NCBI RefSeq assembly: GCF_900176365.1
Contig: NZ_FWXY01000007.1
Span: 62,001 to 126,000 of the forward strand
Length of the DNA stretch: 64,000 bases
Direction of reading: 5' to 3'
Source of the DNA: Desulfocicer vacuolatum DSM 3385
Lineage (GTDB): Bacteria; Desulfobacterota; Desulfobacteria; Desulfobacterales; Desulfobacteraceae
Position 1 is the first letter of the stretch; each line of letters starts with the position of its first letter. Of the stretch, positions 38,815-51,850 are shown in pieces. Under the pieces are notes generated by a model that saw only the letters and a list, made by a program, of their open reading frames with translations, made no database searches and was not told where the DNA came from. Position numbers and translations under genes: made by a program.

Positions 38815-39128
38815 TTACAAGGATGGCGAGAGCAGTGATGGACAATCGTTCGATAATATGTCAGCACCGTGATTTTGCAATGCGGCCGCTTAACATGCTT
38901 TAACCCTGTCTCCTGAATCCTGGGCTTTGACATGTTGTGCTGGCTTACCCGGAGACCAGGCCTTATATGCTGTTTCTGTTCGTCGGCTCATAGTTTTGCG
39001 CTCCAACTTCCTTTAGACGGTTCCGCCCTTGTTTTCGGCTAATACTTGTGTTAACTGTAGCTCGGTTAACAGAATTCACGTATAGGGGACTTGCACCCCA
39101 TAAGTTCATGCCCATGCCGGGCGTACAC
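38815..39128 (-). mobile_element. Truncated group II intron, 5' (domain I) part
   Basis: On the minus strand the sequence starts GTGTACGCCCGGCATGGGC, a bacterial group II intron 5' end, and continues with GGGGTGCAAGTCCCC, AACCGAGCTAC, TTAGCCGAAAACAAGGGCGG, GGAAGTTGGAGCGCAAAAC and GACGAACAGAAAC, all typical of domain I. No reverse transcriptase or domain V follows, so it is a 5' fragment. The left limit is approximate. Confidence 0.7.
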
Positions 39129-39378: not shown

Positions 39379-40242
39379 ATGAATCTGACTGAAAATCTGG
39401 GTAAAAAATTTGTTATCACCACCGAACTCGGGCCGGTAAAAGGTGTCCTTGCAGATAAATCTCTGGAAAAAGCCGGTGAGTATCTTTCATTGGACGGTAT
39501 CAATATTCACGACTGCCCGATGGGTAATCTGCGGATAAATTCGGTTGCTATGGCGAGCCTGGTTCAGAATAAACTCGGTATAGAAGCCGTACCTCATTTC
39601 ACATGCAGAGACCGGAGTCTTCTGGGTACTCAGGCCGATCTGCTCGGTGCTCACGCTCTGGGTATACGCAATATTCTGGTGACAACCGGTGACCCCCCGA
39701 AACACGGGCCTTATCCGTCTAAACCGGTTTATGACTACAGCACCTTCGAGCTTATCCGGCTTATCAGAAAAATGAACAGCGGGCTGGACTACAATGAAAA
39801 GGAATTCGGAGGGAAAACAGATTTTAAAATCGCATGTACGGCCATGCCGACAGCAAGAAATCCCGAACGCGAACTGGAAAGAATGAAAAAGAAAATATCA
39901 GCCGGAGCGGATTTTTTTCAGAGCCAGGTTGTGTATGATTCCGAAAAAGCTGTAAGTTTTCTAAGAGAAGCCCGGAAGCTTGGTAAACCTATACTGACAG
40001 GGGTGATGCCTTTAAAAAGTGTGAAGATGGCAAGGTTTATGAATAAGAATGTGGAAGGCATTGATGTTCCCGAAGAGGTTATCTCCCGCATGGAAAATGA
40101 CGGGGCAGACGGAATTGAAATCACCTGTGATTTTATAAAAGAAATCGCCGAACATACTGACGGTATTCATATTATGGCAATGGGTGATGTGAAAGGCACA
40201 AACCGTATTATCGAATTTGTAAATACACTGGTCGGCAGATAA
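39379..40242 (+). CDS. Methylenetetrahydrofolate reductase-like protein (MetF family)
   Basis: 287 residues of the MetF TIM-barrel family. Visible are VITTELGPVKGV at the start, FTCRDRSLLGTQADLLGAHALGIRNILVTTGDPP (substrate/FAD region), and the later GADFFQSQVVYD and LTGVMPLKS. The family reduces methylene-H4F to methyl-H4F using FAD. This copy is on the plus strand and apart from the metF-hdr operon, next to intron debris, so it may be an acquired paralogue or serve a different methyl pathway. AGGAG lies six bases before the ATG. Confidence 0.85.
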   Translation: MNLTENLGKKFVITTELGPVKGVLADKSLEKAGEYLSLDGINIHDCPMGNLRINSVAMASLVQNKLGIEAVPHFTCRDRSLLGTQADLLGAHALGIRNILVTTGDPPKHGPYPSKPVYDYSTFELIRLIRKMNSGLDYNEKEFGGKTDFKIACTAMPTARNPERELERMKKKISAGADFFQSQVVYDSEKAVSFLREARKLGKPILTGVMPLKSVKMARFMNKNVEGIDVPEEVISRMENDGADGIEITCDFIKEIAEHTDGIHIMAMGDVKGTNRIIEFVNTLVGR

Positions 40243-41783: not shown

Positions 41784-42716
41784 TTAAACGGAAGGCCTGG
41801 GAAGGACTCGGCATCGTTCCGCGATTTCAGGCACCATATGTTCCCACTCAATGGCCATCATATGGACCCCGGCAATGCCCTCCATCTCTTTAAATTCCTC
41901 CACCTGTTCTATCGCAAATTTGATGCCCTCCTCTGCCTGGTCTTTTTTTTCAACCCCTTTGAGACGTTTAATAACACTGTCCGGCACATCCATACCGGGA
42001 ACAAATTTTTTCATGAAATTTGCCATGCCCACATTTTTCATGGGGGTCACCCCGGCAAGGATATAACATTTTTCGTGGAGTCCCATGTCCACGGCCCGGC
42101 GCATGAATTCCCTGAATTTATCCATGTTGTAAATGCACTGGGTCTGGATAAAATCTGCCCCTGCGTTTATCTTGGCTGCCAGGCGGTATACCCTGTAATC
42201 AAAGGGATCTGCAAAGGGGTTGCAGGCGGCCCCCACAAACAGCCGGGGGGGGACATCAATCTCTTCACCGTTGGCAAAGGTGCCCTCATCCCGCATGGTG
42301 GTCACAAGTTTAATTAACTGCATGGAATCAATGTCATGGACGTTTTTGGCCTGGGGATGGTTCCCAAAGGTTTGATGATCCCCGGAAAGACAGAGCATGT
42401 TTTTAATGCCCAATGCCTGGGCTCCCAGTATGTCAGCGGTGATGGCCAGGCGGTTTCTGTCCCGGCACACCATTTGGAAATTGGGTTCCATGCCTTCATG
42501 CACCATGAGGTGGGATGCGGCAAGGCTGGACATTCTCACCACAGCTGTTTGATTGTCTGTGATGTTCACAGCATCCACATTGCCTTTAAGATGTTGAAAT
42601 TTTTCCACAAGATGTTCCACATTGGCCCCTTTGGGGGGGCCGCATTCGCCGGTGAAGGCAAAATGTCCGGCAGTGAGCACTTTTTCAAGATTGCTTCCTG
42701 ATTTCAGATCACTCAT
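41784..42716 (-). CDS. metF: Methylenetetrahydrofolate reductase MetF
   Basis: 310 residues. MetF catalyses the methylene-H4F to methyl-H4F step, in either direction, of the Wood-Ljungdahl pathway. Motifs are FTGECGPPKGANVE, VNITDNQTAVVRMSS, QMVCRDRNRLAITADILGAQALGIKNMLCLSGDH, and GADFIQTQCIYNMDKF. AAGGAGAATAACCC precedes the ATG. It is the last gene after mvhD and metV, but repeats of families B and D (323 bases in all) separate it from metV. A conventional MetFV complex would need both proteins. Confidence 0.92.
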   Translation of the reverse strand: MSDLKSGSNLEKVLTAGHFAFTGECGPPKGANVEHLVEKFQHLKGNVDAVNITDNQTAVVRMSSLAASHLMVHEGMEPNFQMVCRDRNRLAITADILGAQALGIKNMLCLSGDHQTFGNHPQAKNVHDIDSMQLIKLVTTMRDEGTFANGEEIDVPPRLFVGAACNPFADPFDYRVYRLAAKINAGADFIQTQCIYNMDKFREFMRRAVDMGLHEKCYILAGVTPMKNVGMANFMKKFVPGMDVPDSVIKRLKGVEKKDQAEEGIKFAIEQVEEFKEMEGIAGVHMMAIEWEHMVPEIAERCRVLPRPSV

Positions 42717-43039: not shown

Positions 43040-43708
43040 TTATTGGGTTAATTCTTCCCGGATGCTTTGCCGGGGACCGCCGTCCCTGGCAGAGCGCCAG
43101 TCCCTTAGCTCCCTAACCTTCATAAGGTCCTCCAGTTTTCCCAGCTCCATTTTTCTTGCAACAATGTGATCCCAGATGCACTGGGTGTCAGGATTGATTT
43201 CACATTTGGTTTGGGATGATCCGCCGCAGGGACCGTGGAGAAGGCTTTTGGCACACCGGGCAATGGGACAAAGGCCTTCAAAATCGTGGATAATACAGGT
43301 GCCGCAACCGGCGCACCGCTCTTCCCAGATGCCATGGGCCACTGCCCCGCCGTAAAAGGTGGTGTTCACAGCGGGATAAAACTTCTGGCCGGGGTAGGCC
43401 TCGGACAGAAATTGGGGACCCACTCCGCAGGCCATGGAGAGTACAGCGTCATAATCGTTGACTTTATCCCTTAATTGCTCAACATATTCGTTGTCGCACT
43501 GGCGTTCAATGATGGTGGTGTCTATGGTCAAAGGGCGATTTTCTTTTTTTCGGGCAATGCCCAGGGAGGATGCCAGGATTTCCACCTCCTTGAGTCCACC
43601 GGTGTTGCAAACGGTGACGCACCCTTTACATCCCACAATGAGAATTTTTTCTTGGGCCTCTATCATTGTCAATATTTCCGTTAATGGCTTACGATCGGCA
43701 ACTATCAT
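43040..43708 (-). CDS. metV: MetV-type methylenetetrahydrofolate reductase small subunit
   Basis: 222 residues. MetV-like zinc/Fe-S proteins accompany MetF in acetogens and sulfate reducers. Cysteine motifs are VGCKGCVTVCNTGG near the N-terminus, CAGCGTCIIHDFEGLCPIARC and GPCGGSSQTKCEI in the C-terminal part, the latter being the MTHFR_C zinc/Fe-S motif. It starts with AGAGGTG ahead of the ATG, 15 bases after the mvhD stop. It presumably links the MetF flavoprotein with the Hdr electron-transfer module. Confidence 0.88.
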   Translation of the reverse strand: MIVADRKPLTEILTMIEAQEKILIVGCKGCVTVCNTGGLKEVEILASSLGIARKKENRPLTIDTTIIERQCDNEYVEQLRDKVNDYDAVLSMACGVGPQFLSEAYPGQKFYPAVNTTFYGGAVAHGIWEERCAGCGTCIIHDFEGLCPIARCAKSLLHGPCGGSSQTKCEINPDTQCIWDHIVARKMELGKLEDLMKVRELRDWRSARDGGPRQSIREELTQ

Positions 43709-43723
43709 GGTTCACCTCTATTT

Positions 43724-44137
43724 TTATTTTTTTATGGGTGTGGGACCGAGTTTATGGATTTTTTCGGTCATTTCATGGGCAATCTCTGCAAATCGTCCCC
43801 CTTGGGCCGAGGAGAGATTATACATTTCCACCCGATCTGGATTCATGCCGATTTCTTCAAGTATTTTTTTTACATAGATTACTTTTTTTTTGGTTTTTAT
43901 ATTCCCGGTGAGAAAGTGACACTCTCCTTCCAGACATCCTGCCACATAGACACCGTCTGCACCGTCTTCAATGGCTTTGAGCAGATGGAGAATATCCACC
44001 CTGCCGGTGCACGGCACCTGCAGCACCTTTACTTCACTGGGATAGTTTAATCTCATGGAACCTGCCAGGTCCCCGGCTGCATAGGCTCAGTATTGACAGC
44101 AAAACGCAATGATGCGGGGTTCAAAGGAATCTGTCAT
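43724..44137 (-). CDS. mvhD: MvhD-family selenoprotein (in-frame UGA, Sec17)
   Basis: 137 residues when UGA at 44087-44089 is read as selenocysteine. MvhD carries a 2Fe-2S cluster and passes electrons into HdrA. From the ATG at 44137 (behind AAGGAGGAG) the frame reads MTDSFEPRIIAFCCQY, then UGA, then AYAAGDLAGSM and continues without a break. MvhD proteins normally have CCxxC here (as in CCNWCSY), so UGA replaces the third cysteine. A hairpin with a G-starting loop follows 13 bases after the UGA (see SECIS entry). Automatic gene finders would start at the internal ATG at 44056 and lose the cluster-binding end. Confidence 0.88.
44057..44086 (-). promoter_or_regulatory. Candidate bacterial SECIS element in mvhD
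   Basis: On the minus strand, beginning 13 bases after the UGA, GGGACCT pairs with AGGTTCC (one G-T) around a GGC loop. A stem of 7 pairs with the loop about 20 bases from UGA and G in the first loop positions fits the loose bacterial SECIS rule. Confidence 0.6.
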
Positions 44138-44148
44138 GGCGCTCCTCC

Positions 44149-47100
44149 TTATGCCACATTGAACAGGGCATGGGTTTTGGCAAGTATCTGCCGATCGGTG
44201 AAATGGTTCAGGGTGATGGCCTTGGCCGGACATTCTGACACACATAGTCCACAGCCGTGGCACTCTCCGGGATCAATGACAGCATACCCCTCTTCATGGA
44301 TGTAGGGGATTTCATAGGGACAGGTTCTCACACAGGTGAGACACACAGCACATTGATCCTGCTCCACCGTTGCCACAATGCCCCCCACCATGATGTCATC
44401 CCGGGAGATGATGCGCATGGCCCTTGCCGCCGCAGCCAGTGCCTGGGCAATGGTCTCTTCAACGGGTTTGGGAAAGTGGGCCAGACCTGCCACAAATAGA
44501 CCATCCGAGGCAAAATCAACCGGCCTTAGTTTTGCATGGGCCTCCACCAGAAAGCCCTCTTCATTTACCGGAATTTTACAGGTTCCAAAGAGCTGTTTAT
44601 TTTCATGGGGAACAATGCCCGATGCCAGCACCAGAAAATCAGGACGGATGGTGACGGGCATTTTGAGCACATGGTCTTCCACAATTAACTTCAAGCTATT
44701 GGTATCATCAATTTTAACCATGGGCTTTTTTTCAAGGTCATACCGGATGAAAACGATGCCCATTTCCCGGGCTTTTTGATAGAGATCCTCTCGGAATCCA
44801 TAGGCCCTGATATCCCGGTAGAGAATATACACCCGGGCCTGGGGAGACAGGGTTTTCACCTCCATGGCACTTTTCAGGCTGTGGGTGCAGCATACCTTGC
44901 TGCAATAGGGGTTTTCATTGTTCCGGGAGCCCACACACTGGATGAACACCACGGATCGGCTTTTTTGAATGCGGGGTGTTTCGTTTTCAAGGACCTTGTC
45001 CATTTCAAGGTGGGTGAGAACATGGGGATGTTCACCATGGCAGTACTCCTTGGGCCGGTATTCCTTTCCGCCGGTGGCAATGACGGTGGCCCCATGTTCC
45101 ACGGCTTCCCCAGAGGAGAGGGTGGTGATAAAATTACCCAGACTGCCCGTGGTTGATTTCACCTGGGTGTTTAAGAAAACTTTGATGTGCTCATGGCTTT
45201 CAACCTGGGTGATCCTTTCTTTAAGGTAGGGTTGAATGGGCTCTCCCTGCCAGGTGGATCTTAGCTCCCGGGCCACACCGCCCAGGCAATCCTCCCTTTC
45301 CACCAGCCATACCTGGAACCCCTGCCGGGCCACGGACAGGGCAGCCTCCATACCTGCAATACCGCCTCCCACCACCAACAGCGCTTTTTTAATGGAAAGT
45401 TTCACCTGATGCAGGGGTTCCACATGGGCCGCCTTGGCCACGGCCATGCGCACCAGATCCTTGGCTTTCTGGGTGGCTTTTTCCGGTTGGTTCATGTGGA
45501 CCCAGGTGTTCTGGTCCCTTATGTTGGCCATTTCAAAGAGGTATTTGTTCAGGCCTGCGTCCCTTATGGTTTCCTGGAACAGGGCTTCATGGGTACGGGG
45601 GGAGCACGAGGCCACCACCACCCGGTTGATCTCCTTTTCCAGGATGATCTCTTTAATCTGTTCCTGGGTATCCTGGGAACAGGTGAACAGATTCTCCTCC
45701 ACATGCACCACATAGGGCAGGGTGACGGCATAGTCCCGCACCGCAGGTACATCAGCAATGCCGCCGATGTTAATGCCGCAGTTGCACACAAATACACCAA
45801 TGCGCGGAGCCATGCCGGAAAAGTCTCGTTCCGGCGGCAGTTCCCGGGTCCGGGTGAGGCGCCAGCGCTCCTGGGCCAGCAGGGTGGCGGCCATGGTGGC
45901 TGCTGCCGAGGCTTCCATGACAGACATGGGAATATCCTTGGGTTCCTGGAATGCGCCGCACACAAAAATTCCTTCCCGGGTGGTGTTCACAGGGGTCAGG
46001 TCCCGTGTGGATGCAAATTGATGACGGTTGAGGTCAATGTCCATTACCCTTGCCAGTTCCCGGGCGTTGCTGCAAGGGGCAAGGCCCACGGAAAGCACCA
46101 CCATGTCAAAAATCTCCTGGGCTGTGGAGCCCGATTCTGTGGCATAATCAATGCGCAGTCTTTGATCTTTCATGGGAAAAATGGAGTGGATTCTGGAGCG
46201 AATAAAACGCACACCGTTTTCGTCTTCGGCCCGGATATTGTATTTGTCAAACTCCTTGCCATGGGTTCGCATGTCCATGAAGAAAATGGCGGTGTCCAGG
46301 GGGTGCTCACTGTGCTCCTTGGCAATCACCGCCTGTTTGTTGGCATACATGCAGCACACACCGGAGCAGTAACTGTGATCCCCCTGGTTGATGTCCCGGG
46401 AGCCCACGCACTGGAGCCAGGCAATTTTTCTGGGTTCTGTCTCATCCGAGGGGCATATTAGATGGCCTTCATGGGGGCCGGAGGCAGACAAAAGACGTTC
46501 AAACTCAATGCTGGTGACAATGTTGGGACAGGTGCCGTACCCATAGGTTTGATAAGGTGATGGATCAAAGGGGGTAAAACCCGGAGATAAAATCACGGCC
46601 CCCACCTGGATCTTCTGGACCACCGGGGTCATGGTGTGATCCACAGCTCCGGCAAGGCAGGCATCCACGCAGGCCATGCATTCCGAGCAATAGCCGCAGT
46701 TGAGACAGCGTTCGGCCTCCTTTTGCCCTTGTGTTTCCTCAAACCCCAGTTCCACTTCCTCAAAGTTGCCCCGGCGCTGTGCCAGGGGCAATTCCTGGAT
46801 TTTGTGACGACGGGTTGGTGGAATCTCCTTGGAAAGCGGGGTATAGTCGCTTGCTTCTTCCATCTGATCATGGGCTGGGGTGGCCATGCTTCTACCGGCT
46901 TTCATATCTTTTCCTGCAAGGTATCTTGCAATGGATTCTGCTGTTTCCATGCCTGCGGCAATGGCAGAAATGGCCACACCGGGACCGGTTTGCACATCTC
47001 CTGCGGCAAAGACACCCTTTTGTCGTGTTTCAAAGGTGATCCCGTCCACCTCGGTGGTGCCCCACCGGGTGAGGGATATTTTTTCATTGGGGGAGATGGC

Positions 47101-48585
47101 CGACGTATCCGGTGTCTGGCCAATGGCCAGGATTAATTGATCAATGGAAATGTCATGATCACTACCCGGGATGGGAACGGGACGTCGTCGTCCGGATTTA
47201 TCGGGTTCTCCAAGTTCCATATCAATGCATTTCAGTCCGGTGAGGACCTCATTGTGGCTTAACACTTCCCGGGGAGCACACAGATAAACGATTTCAACCC
47301 CTTCGGCTTGGGCAGCAGCTATCTCCTCTTCCCAGGCGGGCATCTCCTCCCGGGTTCTCCGGTAAAGGATGGTGGTCTTTTCTGCCCCCAGTCTCACTGC
47401 ACTTCTTGCCACGTCAATGGCCACATTACCGCCGCCGATGATGGCCACATTTTTGCCCACACGGGTGGTGCCGGTTAAATTCAATTCCCTTAAAAAATCA
47501 ACCCCCTGGCGCACATTATCAAGATTTTCACCGGGGATGCCAAGTTCAATGCCCTTGTGGGCACCCAGGCCCAGAAAAATAGCATCAAATCCCTCTGCCA
47601 GAAGGGAATCAACGGTGAGATTCTTTCCCAGGGGTGTGTTGAGCTTTATCTCAACCCCCAGCCGGGTGATCACCTCAATGTCTTTATCCAGGACATCCGG
47701 TGGCAGGCGATGGTCAGGAATCCCCACCCGGAGCATGCCGCCCGGTTTGGAAAGGGCCTCAAATATGGTGGCTTTTATACCCTTTCTGGCCAGGTGATAG
47801 GCACAGGAGAGACCGGCAGGGCCGGACCCGATGACAGCCACTTTTTTGCCTGTGTCCGGGGCACATTTAATGTCAATGTCCCTGGCATCATATTGATCTG
47901 CGGCCAGTCGCTTCAGGTCCCGGATGGCAATGGGCTCATCCACCTCGCACCGGCGGCAGGCATCTTCGCATTCATGGGGGCAGATCCGTCCCAGAACCCC
48001 GGGCAGGGGCAGCTGTTCCATTATGATTTCAAGGGCTTTTTTGTAATTACCCTGTTTTACCATTTGAACATAGCCCTGGACATTGAGGCCGGCAGGGCAG
48101 GTGAGGGTGCAGGGTGCCCGGTCCCCCTTGTCAATGGCAAATGCACTGGGCATGGCCTGGGGATAGAGTTTAAATGCAGCCCTTTTGGATGACAGACCTT
48201 CATCAAAGGCATTGGGCAGATCCACCGGACATACGGTGTGACACTCGCCACAGGCGGTGCATTTTTCCAAATCAACGAACCGGGGAGCCTTTGTGAGGGT
48301 CACTGTGAAATCTCCGGCACTGCCGTTAACGGCATTCACCGTGGTCATGGGCATCAATTCAATGTTGAGATGACGTCCTGCCTCCACAAGTTTCGGAGAG
48401 ATGATACACATGGAGCAGTCATTGGTGGGAAAGGTTTTATCCAGTTGCGCCATTACGCCGCCAATGGCGGTGTCCTTTTCCACAAGATAGACAAGATAGC
48501 CTGCATCGGCAAGGTCCAGGGAGGCTTGAATCCCTGCAATGCCGGCGCCGACAACCATTACGGAGCCTGTTGTGTTTCCGGTCAT
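44149..48585 (-). CDS. hdrA: Giant HdrA with inserted NADPH-oxidoreductase-like module
   Basis: 1478 residues, more than twice archaeal HdrA. From the N-terminus: FAD site VVGAGIAGIQASLDLADAG with the HdrA-typical DCSMCIISPKL; a 4Fe-4S site CTACGECHTVCP; an inserted GltD/NfnB-like module (about 150-580) with CPHECEDACRR, a second FAD site VIGSGPAGLSCAYHLA, and NAD(P)-site IIGGGNVAIDVARSA; CGYCSECMACVDAC; HdrA continuation with VCNCG; a third FAD site VVGGGIAGMEAALS; and C-terminal ferredoxin motifs CAVCLTCVRTCP and CHGCGLCVSECP. It would act as the flavin hub of the complex, with NAD(P)H access. Start overlaps the upstream stop (TAATG). Confidence 0.93.
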   Translation of the reverse strand: MTGNTTGSVMVVGAGIAGIQASLDLADAGYLVYLVEKDTAIGGVMAQLDKTFPTNDCSMCIISPKLVEAGRHLNIELMPMTTVNAVNGSAGDFTVTLTKAPRFVDLEKCTACGECHTVCPVDLPNAFDEGLSSKRAAFKLYPQAMPSAFAIDKGDRAPCTLTCPAGLNVQGYVQMVKQGNYKKALEIIMEQLPLPGVLGRICPHECEDACRRCEVDEPIAIRDLKRLAADQYDARDIDIKCAPDTGKKVAVIGSGPAGLSCAYHLARKGIKATIFEALSKPGGMLRVGIPDHRLPPDVLDKDIEVITRLGVEIKLNTPLGKNLTVDSLLAEGFDAIFLGLGAHKGIELGIPGENLDNVRQGVDFLRELNLTGTTRVGKNVAIIGGGNVAIDVARSAVRLGAEKTTILYRRTREEMPAWEEEIAAAQAEGVEIVYLCAPREVLSHNEVLTGLKCIDMELGEPDKSGRRRPVPIPGSDHDISIDQLILAIGQTPDTSAISPNEKISLTRWGTTEVDGITFETRQKGVFAAGDVQTGPGVAISAIAAGMETAESIARYLAGKDMKAGRSMATPAHDQMEEASDYTPLSKEIPPTRRHKIQELPLAQRRGNFEEVELGFEETQGQKEAERCLNCGYCSECMACVDACLAGAVDHTMTPVVQKIQVGAVILSPGFTPFDPSPYQTYGYGTCPNIVTSIEFERLLSASGPHEGHLICPSDETEPRKIAWLQCVGSRDINQGDHSYCSGVCCMYANKQAVIAKEHSEHPLDTAIFFMDMRTHGKEFDKYNIRAEDENGVRFIRSRIHSIFPMKDQRLRIDYATESGSTAQEIFDMVVLSVGLAPCSNARELARVMDIDLNRHQFASTRDLTPVNTTREGIFVCGAFQEPKDIPMSVMEASAAATMAATLLAQERWRLTRTRELPPERDFSGMAPRIGVFVCNCGINIGGIADVPAVRDYAVTLPYVVHVEENLFTCSQDTQEQIKEIILEKEINRVVVASCSPRTHEALFQETIRDAGLNKYLFEMANIRDQNTWVHMNQPEKATQKAKDLVRMAVAKAAHVEPLHQVKLSIKKALLVVGGGIAGMEAALSVARQGFQVWLVEREDCLGGVARELRSTWQGEPIQPYLKERITQVESHEHIKVFLNTQVKSTTGSLGNFITTLSSGEAVEHGATVIATGGKEYRPKEYCHGEHPHVLTHLEMDKVLENETPRIQKSRSVVFIQCVGSRNNENPYCSKVCCTHSLKSAMEVKTLSPQARVYILYRDIRAYGFREDLYQKAREMGIVFIRYDLEKKPMVKIDDTNSLKLIVEDHVLKMPVTIRPDFLVLASGIVPHENKQLFGTCKIPVNEEGFLVEAHAKLRPVDFASDGLFVAGLAHFPKPVEETIAQALAAAARAMRIISRDDIMVGGIVATVEQDQCAVCLTCVRTCPYEIPYIHEEGYAVIDPGECHGCGLCVSECPAKAITLNHFTDRQILAKTHALFNVA

Positions 48586-49886
48586 TATGCGTCCTCCTTT
48601 TCAAGGCCATGGTCTGCCAGGTCCGGGCCAAGATAGGTGCGTTCATTTTCACCCAGAATACCCATGGCAAGACAGATGATGGTCCAGAGGTGGACCGTAT
48701 GGTAAGAACCGCCGTAGTGGTGGCACATGTCTTCAATCTGAGCATGGCAGTTGTGGCAGGGGGTGATGACATAATCTGCCCCGGTTTCAATGATTTGATC
48801 AAATTTTATTTTTCCATAGGCCCGTCGCTGTTCTGTGTGACCTGCCTGGAGGGCACCGCCGCCACCGCCGCAGCAAAAATTGTTGGATCGGTTGGGAACC
48901 ATGTCTATGAAATTTTCTTCACCCACCACTGTTTTAATGACAAATCTTAAGTCATTCACAATGTGATCAGATTCAATTTTTCTGGCGATGTTACAAGGGT
49001 CCTGCACAGTGAATTTTATTTTAAGATCCTTGTTCCAGTCTGAATTGACTTTCAAGGTGCCTTGTTTGATCCAAAGGGCAAACAGTTCAATGATGCTTTT
49101 TAACTCAAAGGTGTGGGGGATGTTGAATTTTCTCAATCCTTCCAGGATTGAATAGTAAGAATGTCCTCATTCCGTGTTGACCACCACTTTGGCCTTGATG
49201 TTATGTTCAATGTGGTGGGCAAACTCCTCCATGATATATCGCCACCCCTCATCATCGGCCAGGAACATGCAGTAATTTTCCCCTCCCCACATCACCGTGG
49301 GATAGGTCCAGTCCACACCGGTGAGGTGAAGCACTTTCCACAAAGGGCTCATCTCATCGGGTTCGGTGACCGGTTCCCGGGAGTTCTGGTTCAGCACCAT
49401 ATGGGCACCGGGACGGTCTGCGGTGATATTGAGGCCTTTAAAATCAGGTTGTTCCTCTTTGATTTCTTCTGCCACATCTTCAATGGTAAATACAAAATCT
49501 TCCTTGGGAACGCCCATGGCATTACCCGATCTGATGTGCTGGTCACAGGAGCCCCGGATGCCTTTGGGTCTTTTTTCCCGGGGCCAGGCTGCCCTGACAT
49601 TGAAAATAAATTTGGGAATATTAATTTTCATGGGGCAGGCCGTTACACAGCGGCCGCACATGGTACACACCCAGGCCCAGGGATTTTTAACAATCTCTTC
49701 ATCCATGCCTAAGAGGAGCATGCGTAAAAATTTTCTGGGGTCCATGTCATATTGTCCGCTGGCCGGACACCCGCCGGTGCAGGCCCCACAGGTGAGACAC
49801 AGATCAAGATTTGCATCGGGCACACGGCTTGCCACCTGGTTTTTCAGTTCACAGGTGAGCTCATCAAGCGCAATTGAATCAGTCAT
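48585..49886 (-). CDS. HdrC/HdrD-like Fe-S selenoprotein (in-frame UGA, Sec240)
   Basis: 433 residues if UGA at 49167-49169 is selenocysteine. The N-terminal half has two 4Fe-4S motifs of HdrC type: CLTCGACTGGCP and CTMCGRCVTACP. The second half is a CCG-domain protein like HdrB/HdrD/DsrK, with VQDPCNIARK, FCCGGGGG and ITPCHNC. The frame VVVNTE-UGA-GHSYYSILEGL aligns with the ECGH motif of DsrK/HdrD proteins, so UGA replaces that cysteine. A hairpin follows the UGA. GGAGGG precedes the ATG. Without recoding it would be mistaken for two broken genes. It probably takes the HdrBC place in the complex. Confidence 0.88.
49133..49151 (-). promoter_or_regulatory. Candidate bacterial SECIS element in the HdrD-like gene
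   Basis: On the minus strand, TCAATCC pairs with GGATTGA around loop TGGAA. The loop begins 22 bases after the UGA and has G at its second position, fitting bacterial SECIS rules. Confidence 0.65.
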
Positions 49887-49984: not shown

Positions 49985-50016
49985 GTACTGGGTACTGGGT
50001 ACTGGGTACTGGGTAC
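49985..50016. repeat. Seven-base tandem repeat (GTACTGG)n
   Basis: About 4.6 perfect head-to-tail units of GTACTGG in the 161-base gap between two genes of the metF-hdr operon. Tandem units of this kind can change copy number. Confidence 0.85.
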
Positions 50017-50047
50017 ATAAAAAATAGAGCGTGCCGTGCACACAGAC

Positions 50048-50926
50048 TTATCGTAATTTAGCGGCATCAAGATATTCGCCAAGCTTTTCTTCTCCGCCAA
50101 TGGTGATGATGTGTACCCCCTGGCACAGATCTTTAAGCCCTTTAATTGTATCGGCAAACAGCTCAATGCTTGCCCGGGTTTTATCCGGGGCCTTTAAAAG
50201 TTTTTGAACGGCCCATTCCGGCACCAGTCCGGATTTGAAATGGCGGTTGAGAAATTTCGCCATGCCCCCGGTGCGAAGGATCATAACCTCGGCGATGACC
50301 GGTACCCCAAAGGTGTTCACCTGTTTAATGAATTTTTCAAATTGATCCAGGTCAAAGATGGGGGTGGTGAGAAAATAGCCTGTTCCCACATTGATCATAT
50401 CTTCCATTTCCTCCATGCCCCGTTTGGGAAGATTTTTCCCCCAGGGGGTTTCCACCCCGGAACCCAGCATAAAATCCACCTTTTTATCCAGGGCATTACC
50501 GTCAATGGTCTGGCCCTGTTTCATGTGGTCCAGTACGGATGAAAGTTTTCCTGAATCCACATGGAAAAACATGGACTCCTGGAGGCTGTCCCCGGAGATA
50601 CGATAATCTTCGGTGAATACCAGAAGATTTTCAACACCTGCTTCGTGGGCCAGGGTGAGATCCCGCTGCAGTTGAAATCGGTTTTTATCCCTTGTGGTGG
50701 TCTGATAAATGGCGTTGAAACGATTTTTACGAAGTAAATCACAGGTTTGAATACTGTCTCCCACCACCCCTTCAAGTTCAACCTCAGACAAAGATACGCC
50801 ATCCACCCGGCCCTTAACCCTGTTCAGACTTTTGATCAGTTCCTGGGGATCATCATCTCCCATGGGGGCCTGTATTTCCGAAGTTACAACAAATTTCTTT
50901 TTTTTCAGTGAATCTTTCAAGTTCAT
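50048..50926 (-). CDS. Divergent MetF-like protein
   Basis: About 292 residues. It keeps the MetF barrel outline: FVVTSEIQAPMGDD, RVDGVSLSEVELEGVVGDS, TTTRDKNRFQLQRDLTLAHEAGVENLLVFTED, and YFLTTPIFDLDQFEKFI with VPVIAEVMILRTGGMAKFLN. It lacks the GD-P/H of the usual flavin region (TEDY here), so substrate or cofactor use may differ. The ATG at 50926 follows AGGAGG; its gene starts 10 bases after the regulator and leads into the Hdr genes, suggesting it is a component or accessory of the same complex. Confidence 0.8.
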   Translation of the reverse strand: MNLKDSLKKKKFVVTSEIQAPMGDDDPQELIKSLNRVKGRVDGVSLSEVELEGVVGDSIQTCDLLRKNRFNAIYQTTTRDKNRFQLQRDLTLAHEAGVENLLVFTEDYRISGDSLQESMFFHVDSGKLSSVLDHMKQGQTIDGNALDKKVDFMLGSGVETPWGKNLPKRGMEEMEDMINVGTGYFLTTPIFDLDQFEKFIKQVNTFGVPVIAEVMILRTGGMAKFLNRHFKSGLVPEWAVQKLLKAPDKTRASIELFADTIKGLKDLCQGVHIITIGGEEKLGEYLDAAKLR

Positions 50927-50936
50927 GATCGGCCTC

Positions 50937-51512
50937 CTATTCTTTAAGTCCAAGCAGCCTTGCCACTTCATTTTTTAACTGGGACAGTGGCAATGGTTTT
51001 GACAGGCACATGTCCGCACCGTTATCCTTCATCTGCTGAAATTTTTCATCGTCAAGATAGGCAGAAAGGACAATGATTTTGATGTGGGCGGTTTCTTCTG
51101 TTGATTTTATTTTTTTACACACCTCATAGCCCTTGATGTCAGGCATCATGATGTCAAGGATGAGCAGGTCCGGTTTAAAATGGTTGACCTGGAGCCCTGC
51201 TTCAAATCCGTCCGAGGCTGAAATGACTTCATAATCATATTCGTCCTCCTCCAGGGACTGGACAATGGATTCCACAATGATCATGTCGTCATCCACCACC
51301 AGGATTTTTTTTCCGGTGCCGTTTTCCCGTTTGTCAGGAATGGGGATGCCCTGGACCTCCATGAATTCTTCAAGGTCTGCTTTTTTGATTCTGCGGTGGC
51401 CCCCCACGGTTTTGTAAGCCTTGATGTGACCGGCCTCCACCCAGTTGATGATGGTTTTTGATGATACATTGCAATGTTTACTTGCGGTAAATACGGTCAT
51501 GGTGTCTTCCAT
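50937..51512 (-). CDS. Response regulator with N-terminal excisionase/MerR-type HTH
   Basis: About 191 residues. Residues 1-55 are an excisionase/MerR-like winged helix (MTVFTASKHCNVSSKTIINWVEAGHIKAYKT, GGHRRI). Residues 70-190 are a receiver with phosphoacceptor in LLILDIMMPD and conserved lysine in LSKPLP. This order, DNA-binding first, is less common than receiver first. AGGAGGG precedes the ATG at 51512. As first gene of the metF-hdr operon, it probably senses a phosphorelay signal and may control the operon. No partner kinase is adjacent. Confidence 0.88.
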   Translation of the reverse strand: MEDTMTVFTASKHCNVSSKTIINWVEAGHIKAYKTVGGHRRIKKADLEEFMEVQGIPIPDKRENGTGKKILVVDDDMIIVESIVQSLEEDEYDYEVISASDGFEAGLQVNHFKPDLLILDIMMPDIKGYEVCKKIKSTEETAHIKIIVLSAYLDDEKFQQMKDNGADMCLSKPLPLSQLKNEVARLLGLKE

Positions 51513-51648
51513 GAATCGACCCTCCTTTTTTATTGATGACATTCGCCTTGGGCTGTGGTGCGAAATATGAGAGGTCTGGGTGGATTAAGTGATCTTTATT
51601 CTGTGTCACTCTCCGGGGAACAGGAAAAAATGAATAAACCCAAGATTT

Positions 51649-51850
51649 TTTATAACTGCCATGGGCAGATCATATTGGGATTTGACCTGTCCACAACGAA
51701 TATAGGCTCGTAGACGCGGAGCCAAATGGTATTATACCGCCGCCCCCCGACGGACAATGGGCCCGGACCGGAACTGTAGACAGCTCAATTGTCCGGTTCC
51801 TATTGCCCGTCGGGGGGCGGCTCTGCTGAGGTTAACTTGGAAGATGCTTT
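51649..51850. repeat. Composite A + B repeat, copy 3 of family B
   Basis: Starts TATAACTGCCATGGGCAGAT, passes through CACAACGAATATAGG and GGTATTATACCGCC, then family B (51739-51830) with GCCCCCCGACGGACAATGG and CATTGCCCGTCGGGG-type arms, ending GCTCTGCTGAGGTTAACTTGG. Confidence 0.75.

Follow-up and report, generated by a model that had tools for sequence, protein, structure and literature searches.

A very probable UGA-encoded selenocysteine in an HdrD-like protein of the UGH family, in an hdrA-mvhD-metV-metF gene run of Desulfocicer vacuolatum

The window analysed here, a 64,000-nucleotide stretch of Desulfocicer vacuolatum DSM 3385, very probably (roughly 0.8) encodes at 48585-49886 a genuine selenocysteine (Sec) protein of the UGH family, set in an hdrD(Sec)-hdrA-mvhD(Sec)-metV-metF gene run. 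Retranslation of 48585-49886 on the minus strand gave 433 residues and a stop, with a sole internal TGA at codon 240 (TE-U-GH), in agreement with the coordinates, strand, length and UGA position given in an earlier note on this DNA. The stop codon of the gene overlaps the hdrA start by one base (TAATG). The relevant features are as follows.

48585..49886, minus strand: HdrD-like selenoprotein gene (HdrC+HdrB fusion, UGH family), 433 residues with readthrough at UGA240
49167..49169, minus strand: in-frame selenocysteine UGA, codon 240, motif TEUGH at residues 238-242
49133..49151, minus strand: bacterial SECIS-like hairpin TCAATCC-TGGAA-GGATTGA, 7-bp stem, loop 23-27 nt past the UGA
44149..48585, minus strand: HdrA-type flavoprotein, 1478 residues, GltD-like NAD(P)H-binding module, no internal stop
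43724..44137, minus strand: MvhD (FlpD, PF02662), FCCQYU, in-frame UGA at codon 17 (44089-44087)
43040..43708, minus strand: MetV-like protein (DUF5981, methylene-THF reductase C terminal)
41784..42716, minus strand: MetF, methylenetetrahydrofolate reductase (PF02219)
50048..50971, minus strand: second MetF-like protein (PF02219), start approximate, encoded upstream of the selenoprotein gene
50937..51542, minus strand: helix-turn-helix response regulator, likewise encoded upstream of the selenoprotein gene

Codon 240 was compared across a family sample made up of the best 80 of 377 confirmed matches to the Sec query and at least 29 new loci. One of the matches, from Desulfamplus magnetovallimortis, is 84% identical. 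Matches that failed to span residues 200-260 were excluded beforehand, and the 118 spanning matches were reduced by 10 (identical proteins or duplicate copies of one place, L023-L025) to 108, near-identical sequences being kept. Among these 108 distinct listed members, window copy included, codon 240 was TGA in 86, TGC in 16 and TGT in 6, and never another codon; the 86:22 Sec:Cys ratio describes related sequences chosen by similarity to a Sec query and is no census. The Cys codons that replace TGA in 22/108 bear out the earlier note's placement of Sec in the cysteine column of an ECGH motif. Residues 237-239, 241 and 242 were invariant in all listed members and residue 240 was only Cys or Sec; residue 243 varied among S, E, V, I and D. 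When aligned with its Cys paralogues, the protein matches them past codon 240 as far as the C terminus. A pseudogene, sequencing artefact or assembly error that leaves a nonsense codon at position 240 was rejected as wholly improbable: a stop codon does occur in frame, but TGA is retained in 86 distinct listed sequences, the 3' part is intact, and TAA or TAG was found in none of the 108. Decoding of UGA as Trp or another residue in D. vacuolatum has just as negligible a chance, since the frame would indeed be open once UGA counts as sense, but all 22 listed members without UGA have Cys at this codon, tRNA-Sec and selB are present in the genome, and TGA closes the window gene taken to be trpB, so that UGA acts as a stop elsewhere in the window.

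The genome search recovered selA, selB, selC and selD, all above cut-off (selC at 75.8 bits), and selD carries an in-frame TGA; both members of the selC/selB pair, whose lack the earlier note had named as speaking against Sec, are thus there. Five family paralogues were found in the D. vacuolatum genome, three with UGA and two with TGC, and one of the latter (L008) is 63% identical with TGC at codon 240. The Cys paralogues would serve as selenium-independent versions. Protein alignments comprised 57 sequences (A3), 42 (A4) and 42 plus one DsrK-like outgroup (A5). A quick tree, whose root was disregarded because the branch to the outgroup is so long (10 changes per column), required at least three Sec/Cys state changes, of which starred branches force only one, gain and loss being indistinguishable.

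Bacterial SECIS elements are hairpins shortly past the UGA with a G among the first loop bases. The TCAATCC/GGATTGA stem with its TGGAA loop, pointed out in the earlier note and located here at 49151-49133, is conserved across Sec genes: loop base G27 was invariant in the 86 listed Sec genes, and stem pairing held in 95.5% of 553 cells (79 distinct Sec rows) versus 53.2% of 154 cells (22 Cys rows). Stem columns 22/34 showed A-U/G-C exchange among Sec rows, and the outermost pair was broken in 24/79. In two of five covariation measures, the Sec stems were no better than shuffles (both-side changes 326/500; further pair types 500/500). Against synonymous recoding, the mean z was -1.96 for the 86 Sec genes and +0.02 for the 22 Cys genes (Mann-Whitney p 1.2e-10, the sequences being related and hence not independent). 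The signal was strong over the family and weak singly: in the folding check suggested by the earlier note, the window hairpin alone was not significant (z -1.28, equally good folds in 23/200 shuffles). The mvhD hairpin alone was likewise not significant (z -0.30, 69/200 shuffles as good), and Rfam at gathering thresholds reported no SECIS family in the window.

The selenoprotein contains PF13183 (Fer4) and PF02754 (CCG), both above Pfam gathering, and domain and fold searches place HdrC and HdrB domains within one chain; this HdrD-type architecture fits the HdrC/HdrD-like label it had been given. In the window, metF, metV, mvhD and hdrA cluster with the gene; the cluster has no separate HdrB and HdrC subunit genes, one fused protein standing instead, and no membrane partner gene was found among the six neighbours examined. 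The 1478-residue flavoprotein is read here as HdrL-like. A further Sec protein in the same gene run had been claimed, and the mvhD UGA was indeed found, although the two selenoprotein genes are not adjacent as the earlier note had them, being separated by the HdrA gene. From gene order we infer that the two Sec proteins may share one complex; complex membership and electron direction are guesses on the same grounds.

Gene context was read from listed loci of at least 9,000 bases, giving 63 loci that with the window make 64 places, whose uneven flanks weaken any absence of a neighbour. MetV lay near the family gene at 19/45 Sec places versus 0/19 Cys places. The mvhD gene carried UGA in 13/17 cases at most 2.5 kb from metV and in 0/30 elsewhere (a different codon in 29, no coverage in 1). 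The second MetF-like gene (its protein query cut from a misplaced start, AGG) and the response regulator gene each accompanied the selenoprotein gene in 12/13 clade-I places. Neither MetV nor MvhD turned up in 8 of those 13 places, at least 2 of which have short flanks. The two other Sec paralogues of the genome lie away from hdrA, mvhD and metV, and the Cys paralogue L011 adjoins hdrA and mvhD.

The structure of the selenoprotein was predicted with a pLDDT of 86.5, and the best solved fold for this model was EtfD (VIA Z 25.2 over 371 residues), followed by HdrB chains (Z 20-21). Scores close to those of the HdrB chains were also obtained for 3kwl, a hypothetical H. pylori protein (Z 20.0, 338 residues), and for 9a6l, a LutA model (Z 19.6). 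The five canonical noncubane cluster ligands C298, C338, C339, C377 and C380 were Cys in 108/108 listed members. HMMER matched U240 to EtfD C581 and H242 to EtfD H583, and MAFFT and hhalign agreed for the corresponding residues of the EtfD homologue L020. In the available part of the EtfD paper, C581 ligates the second Fe-S cluster (D1) and H583 reaches the D2 cluster from lobe 1 (PMC13083937). The remaining D1 ligand positions have no Cys in the selenoprotein: C503 falls on S169 (MAFFT) or A161 (HMMER), C538 on G201 (MAFFT) or W193 (HMMER), and C584 on residue 243, never Cys among listed members. A second complete, HdrB-like CCG cluster site is thus absent, its lobe-1 ligands missing apart from residue 240. 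Because U240 aligns with C581, whose co-ligands are lost, Sec240 is, on the alignments, outside the five noncubane ligands and in the other lobe (lobe 1), where it probably stands beside the surviving noncubane cluster. The plain reading that Sec sits at the catalytic cluster, as the earlier note had it, was therefore rejected, with all five ligands Cys and three alignments placing residue 240 in lobe 1. The C-terminal-half profile A4 aligned with HdrB sequences over lobe 2 only, and found no EtfD among PDB sequences at E <= 1; A3 and A5 did.

Two alternatives to selenol chemistry at Sec240 were weighed, both disputing only this mechanism and neither the Sec, family nor gene-run identification. 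Sec240 may, though we think it unlikely, be an Fe-S ligand (with C206, H242 or others), holding a reduced lobe-1 cluster or capping the lobe-2 noncubane cluster, tuning its potential without selenol-substrate chemistry. The match of residue 240 to cluster ligand C581 in three alignments, the match of H242 to H583 (a D2 ligand from lobe 1 in the same excerpt of PMC13083937) and the invariance of C206 in 108/108 listed members favour it, and C206 might be a second lobe-1 ligand with a small cluster there. However, the positions of C503, C538 and C584 are non-Cys, and C206 is offset from C538 by 5 or 13 residues, depending on the alignment, and is absent from L018, a more distant ECGH protein. 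A C206-U240 selenenylsulfide pair was also weighed and not relied on, L018 lacking C206 despite its invariance in the 108. An equally unlikely option is a plain EtfD-like electron relay to a membrane or soluble partner, in which Sec240 only resists oxidation or suits a docking surface. EtfD, the top fold match, is called an electron wire in the part of PMC13083937 at hand, and the top NCBIfam models are HmcF, TmcB and DsrK, every one under cut-off; yet the invariance of residues 237-239, 241 and 242 among the 108 listed members, with only Cys or Sec at 240, suggests chemistry over packing.

The selenol mechanism at Sec240 is itself a tentative prediction. On this reading the selenoprotein is soluble and joins a ferredoxin domain of HdrC type, with two [4Fe-4S] sites, to a two-lobed CCG domain of HdrB type; it may carry electrons out of or into a MetFV-MvhD-HdrA complex, which would oxidise (or make) methyl-THF of the Wood-Ljungdahl pathway. 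Electrons would pass from MetFV/MvhD through the HdrA flavin and two cubane clusters to one noncubane cluster in lobe 2, held by the five Cys ligands. Sec240, in lobe 1 where HdrB and EtfD hold a second cluster, would point its selenol towards the emptied site beside the noncubane cluster and attack a disulfide or persulfide substrate, which might be a small disulfide or a protein of the DsrC type; cluster and selenol might in this way jointly replace the two-cluster function of HdrB. Rather doubtful is the fuller proposal that a single selenol replaces the HdrB-type second noncubane cluster and that MetFV-linked operons add a Sec-MvhD, forming a two-selenium electron-confurcating methyl-THF oxidase that feeds a thiol/disulfide carrier of sulfate reduction. 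HdrB/TmcB-type CCG proteins are predicted to interact with DsrC in the portion consulted of PMC10553843. In Sporomusa, according to an extract of PMC9430772, MetVF was not recovered together with HdrBCA-MvhD on purification, and none of the dithiols tried helped the reaction, results that count against the proposed complex and mechanism.

UGH proteins are known selenoproteins, described as Fe-S oxidoreductase-like (GlpC, COG0247, PTHR43551) in the relevant passages of PMC13188914, PMC9312934 and PMC1794560, the last reporting UGH operons with hdrA and frhD in 2006. The window protein belongs to this published family and is not new as a selenoprotein; as such a discovery it is ordinary, UGH selenoproteins having been in print since at least 2006. 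The likeness extends to the UGH motif, the COG0247-type protein, Deltaproteobacteria and operons with hdrA and frhD/mvhD. The published operons, as far as those passages describe them, differ in running on to the hydrogenase genes frhG-frhA, where the window has metV and metF, and in an in-frame UGA in hdrA that the window gene lacks. We take the COG0247 type to be the Fer4 and CCG domain pair. No UGH protein linked to metF/metV was found in the titles and passages of the open-access literature searched, nor a UGA in mvhD beside metV or the alignment of Sec240 with EtfD Cys581. Families such as UGH are still called functionally uncharacterised in the excerpt of a 2026 review (PMC13188914). The MetFV-linked run with two UGA-containing subunits offers a testable assignment, that of methylene-THF reductase electron partner in sulfate reducers, and the match of Sec240 to a cluster site that has been emptied points to a residue for mutation and a spectroscopic signature.

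The gene run resembles the MetFV-HdrABC-MvhD methylene-THF reductases of Moorella and Sporomusa in having metF, metV, mvhD and hdrA in one cluster, but HdrB and HdrC are separate there in the parts consulted (PMC6085437, PMC9430772), whereas the window has one fused HdrD-like UGH selenoprotein. EtfD of Mycobacterium smegmatis (9ojn) shares the closest solved fold, the lobe-2 noncubane ligands and the His matching H242, but has, by the same partial account (PMC13083937), a membrane domain with haem, a full lobe-1 cluster and no Sec. Methanogen HdrB (5odc_B and relatives) has the same CCG fold with two lobes and, like the selenoprotein, a full set of lobe-2 ligands, but has a second noncubane cluster in lobe 1 and a separate HdrC; methanogen HdrD (HdrDE) shares the one-chain HdrC+HdrB but has two complete CCG sites. 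The ECGH motif is seen in L012 and L018 of the same genome, read here as proteins of the DsrK, HmcF or TmcB type, with Cys where the selenoprotein has Sec. For the selenoprotein itself these identities were rejected on NCBIfam scores far under cut-off: 116.4 bits against 400 for DsrK (NF045796), 180.6 against 750 for HmcF (NF045711) and 161.1 against 735 for TmcB (NF045724). In 2009, the portion cited of PMC2702500 counted HdrD4 of Desulfobacterium autotrophicum HRM2 among the selenoproteins, and its description is similar: a soluble HdrC+HdrB-type protein of related bacteria, listed as containing Sec. The D. autotrophicum MAG locus in our sample (L052) is a Cys form.

The 433 codons at 48585-49886 (- strand) are open save for a TGA at codon 240, as expected from the claim in an earlier note that the UGA splits one continuous protein. 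Alignment with paralogues in the same genome showed 63% identity to L008 over residues 1-429 with TGC at codon 240, while L009 (62%) and L010 (59%) are alignable with TGA there; thus, the sequences 5' and 3' of the UGA belong to one protein. A further paralogue, L011 (50%), also has TGC, so that UGA occurs in three, and a Cys codon in two, of the five close paralogues, window copy included. The genome search also listed eleven weaker relatives, with a top identity of 32%. The own-genome proteins L012 and L018, which we read as DsrK-type, retain ECGH with Cys, and L018 has no equivalent of C206. The genome also holds the selC/selB pair whose lack was named as an argument against selenocysteine: tRNA-Sec scored 75.8 bits (cut-off 47), with five further, weaker matches all below 47, and selB, selA and selD each exceeded their own cut-offs. 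selD (L138, G000 C63:144301-145227) carries one in-frame TGA, so that the selenophosphate synthetase is probably a selenoprotein itself.

The family sample had three sources. In named genome records, 377 of the 389 stretches considered as candidates were found to encode a relative, and the best 80 of these were used; the window's taxonomic family supplied at least 29 loci not in that set, and the own-genome loci completed the sample. The 118 spanning matches in this sample had TGA (94), TGC (18) or TGT (6) at codon 240. Among its 108 distinct proteins the counts were 86, 16 and 6. N237, T238, E239, G241 and H242 were unchanged in 108/108, as were the eight ferredoxin cysteines, C114, C206 and the CCG cysteines C298, C338, C339, C377 and C380. 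Named relatives include Desulfamplus (84%) and Desulfatitalea; those of Desulfoluna are Cys forms. A match at E <= 1e-60 was present in 85 of 86 genomes of the taxonomic family, own included, and one at E <= 1e-100 in 38 of 297 genomes drawn evenly across the phylum. This kind of HdrD-like selenoprotein is already known, since a 2026 review lists an 'Fe-S oxidoreductase-like protein, PTHR43551, motif UGH', predicted with high confidence (PMC13188914), and the selenoproteins listed in the D. autotrophicum genome paper include HdrD4 and four MvhD (PMC2702500). The review also describes a four-selenoprotein operon in Deltaproteobacteria, a GlpC gene with frhA, hdrA and frhD, and calls the interactions unclear (PMC13188914).

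A hairpin had also been proposed behind the UGA. In an alignment of 86 Sec genes starting at TGA (79 distinct rows, 553 cells), columns 19-25 were paired with 31-37 in 95.5% of the cells, against 88.6% in shuffles, 0/500 of which were as high. The covariation score exceeded all shuffles; neither the pairs changed on both sides (two) nor the count of further pair types did so, and the outermost pair was broken in 24 rows. In the Cys genes (n = 22), 53.2% of 154 cells in the same columns were paired, which did not exceed the shuffled level. The change from A-U to G-C seen at columns 22/34 tracks two sequence groups and may be a single event; therefore, a recoding test was added, in which each 42-nt stretch was recoded 200 times with synonymous codons. 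Sec genes folded better than their own recodings (mean z -1.96; p <= 0.05 in 45/86), whereas Cys genes did not (mean z 0.02; p <= 0.05 in 1/22; Mann-Whitney p 1.2e-10, with related rows taken as independent). The hairpin thus holds over the Sec family, but the window copy alone is unremarkable (z -1.28), as is that of mvhD (z -0.30).

With Pfam, Fer4 dicluster domains were matched roughly between residues 26 and 89, and a single CCG domain spanned 293-384. An AlphaFold2 model from 57 family sequences (mean pLDDT 86.5, pTM 0.86) gave mycobacterial EtfD (9ojn) as top solved-structure match (Foldseek E 5.4e-10; VIA Z 25.2, 371 residues, rmsd 2.9), followed by HdrB chains (VIA Z 20-21, 244-256 residues). 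Because the structure matches EtfD and HdrB and the sequence matches HdrC chains, the modelled protein is an HdrC-like part followed by two HdrB-like lobes, the CCG model catching lobe 2 only.

EtfD has two clusters: D1, which is linear [3Fe-4S] and is bound by Cys503, 538, 581 and 584, and D2, which is noncubane [4Fe-4S] with Cys637, 672, 673, 709, 712 and His583 as ligands; in HdrB both clusters act on the disulfide, and Cys81 and Cys234 are displaceable bridging cysteines (PMC13083937). Aligning the family profile to EtfD with HMMER matched residue 240 to the leading Cys, and H242 to the His, of the EtfD motif TCPHC. Numbering was set by the own-genome EtfD-like protein L020 (416 bits to 9ojn; CPHC ends at 584), to which hhalign and MAFFT gave concordant alignments at residue 240. 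Since the three methods concur, U240 corresponds to C581, H242 to H583 and residue 243 to C584. MAFFT and HMMER put C503 opposite S169 and A161, respectively, and C538 opposite G201 and W193; though the methods disagree on the residue, none finds Cys at either. The D1 ligand positions thus hold Cys/Sec at 240 only, and all five D2 cysteines are retained, which suggests that Sec240 lies next to the lobe-2 cluster, in a site that has lost its own cluster. We found no earlier description of this mapping, nor of a MetV link with two UGA-containing subunits, in the open-access papers searched.

The HdrD-like gene and hdrA overlap where the stop codon of the former meets the start codon of the latter (TAATG). 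Downstream follow hdrA, mvhD (UGA17), metV and metF; the genes upstream encode a second MetF-like protein and a response regulator. Features of this region and beyond are:
After the HdrD-like gene: hdrA, 1478 residues, with a GltD-like NAD(P)H-binding middle part
50048-50971: MTHFR-like gene, besides metF; this is the second MetF-like gene, upstream of the HdrD-like gene and there without a MetV partner
39379-40242: MTHFR-like gene, besides metF, by reading of the sequence
38860-39024, - strand: group II intron D1-D4-3 (Rfam match), just upstream of an MTHFR-like gene

Gene context was counted at 64 places with flank. In clade I, to which the window and 12 other places belong, an HdrA match was present in 13/13 (12/13 counting only the C-terminal part), the second MetF-like gene and response regulator in 12/13, and HdrA, MvhD and MetV together in 5/13; the other Sec sequences had all three in 14/32. 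Near Cys forms, MvhD occurred in 15/19 places and MetV in 0/19, against 19/45 for MetV near Sec (Fisher p 0.0006, kinship ignored). Of the mvhD copies no more than 2.5 kb from metV, 13/17 had the UGA; of the other copies, 0/30 did (one not covered at the codon, three with TCC). Thus, in this sample of 64 places, the double-UGA arrangement accompanies MetV.

In Moorella, MetFV, HdrABC and MvhD have been proposed as an electron-bifurcating complex; in Sporomusa, contacts were seen by pull-down, MetVF did not copurify with Hdr subunits, and the tested dithiols were no help (PMC6085437, PMC9430772). In syntrophic sulfate reducers, metF adjoins hdrABC (PMC10553843). By analogy, the fused HdrD-like protein would take the place of HdrBC, next to MetFV, HdrA and MvhD. 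The gene order and residues of the run are observed directly; complex formation, electron direction, substrate and the role of the selenol we infer.

The remaining Sec paralogues, L009 and L010, are not near hdrA, mvhD or metV; hdrA and mvhD relatives adjoin the Cys paralogue L011. From reading of translations, L009 lies upstream of a putative arginine decarboxylase gene, and L010 (L024 8231-9550) is tail to tail with putative fadB and fadA of beta-oxidation (L024 4343-8053). With these neighbours, a separate partner for L010 is possible. By eye, a short tandem repeat, TACTGGG, lies upstream of the HdrD-like gene (about 49985-50018), and a GC-rich inverted repeat, CCGCCCCCCGACGGACAATGG followed by its rough complement, lies past the response regulator gene (about 51740-51825), with comparable GC-rich sequence apparently in L023 near 12.7-13.1 kb.
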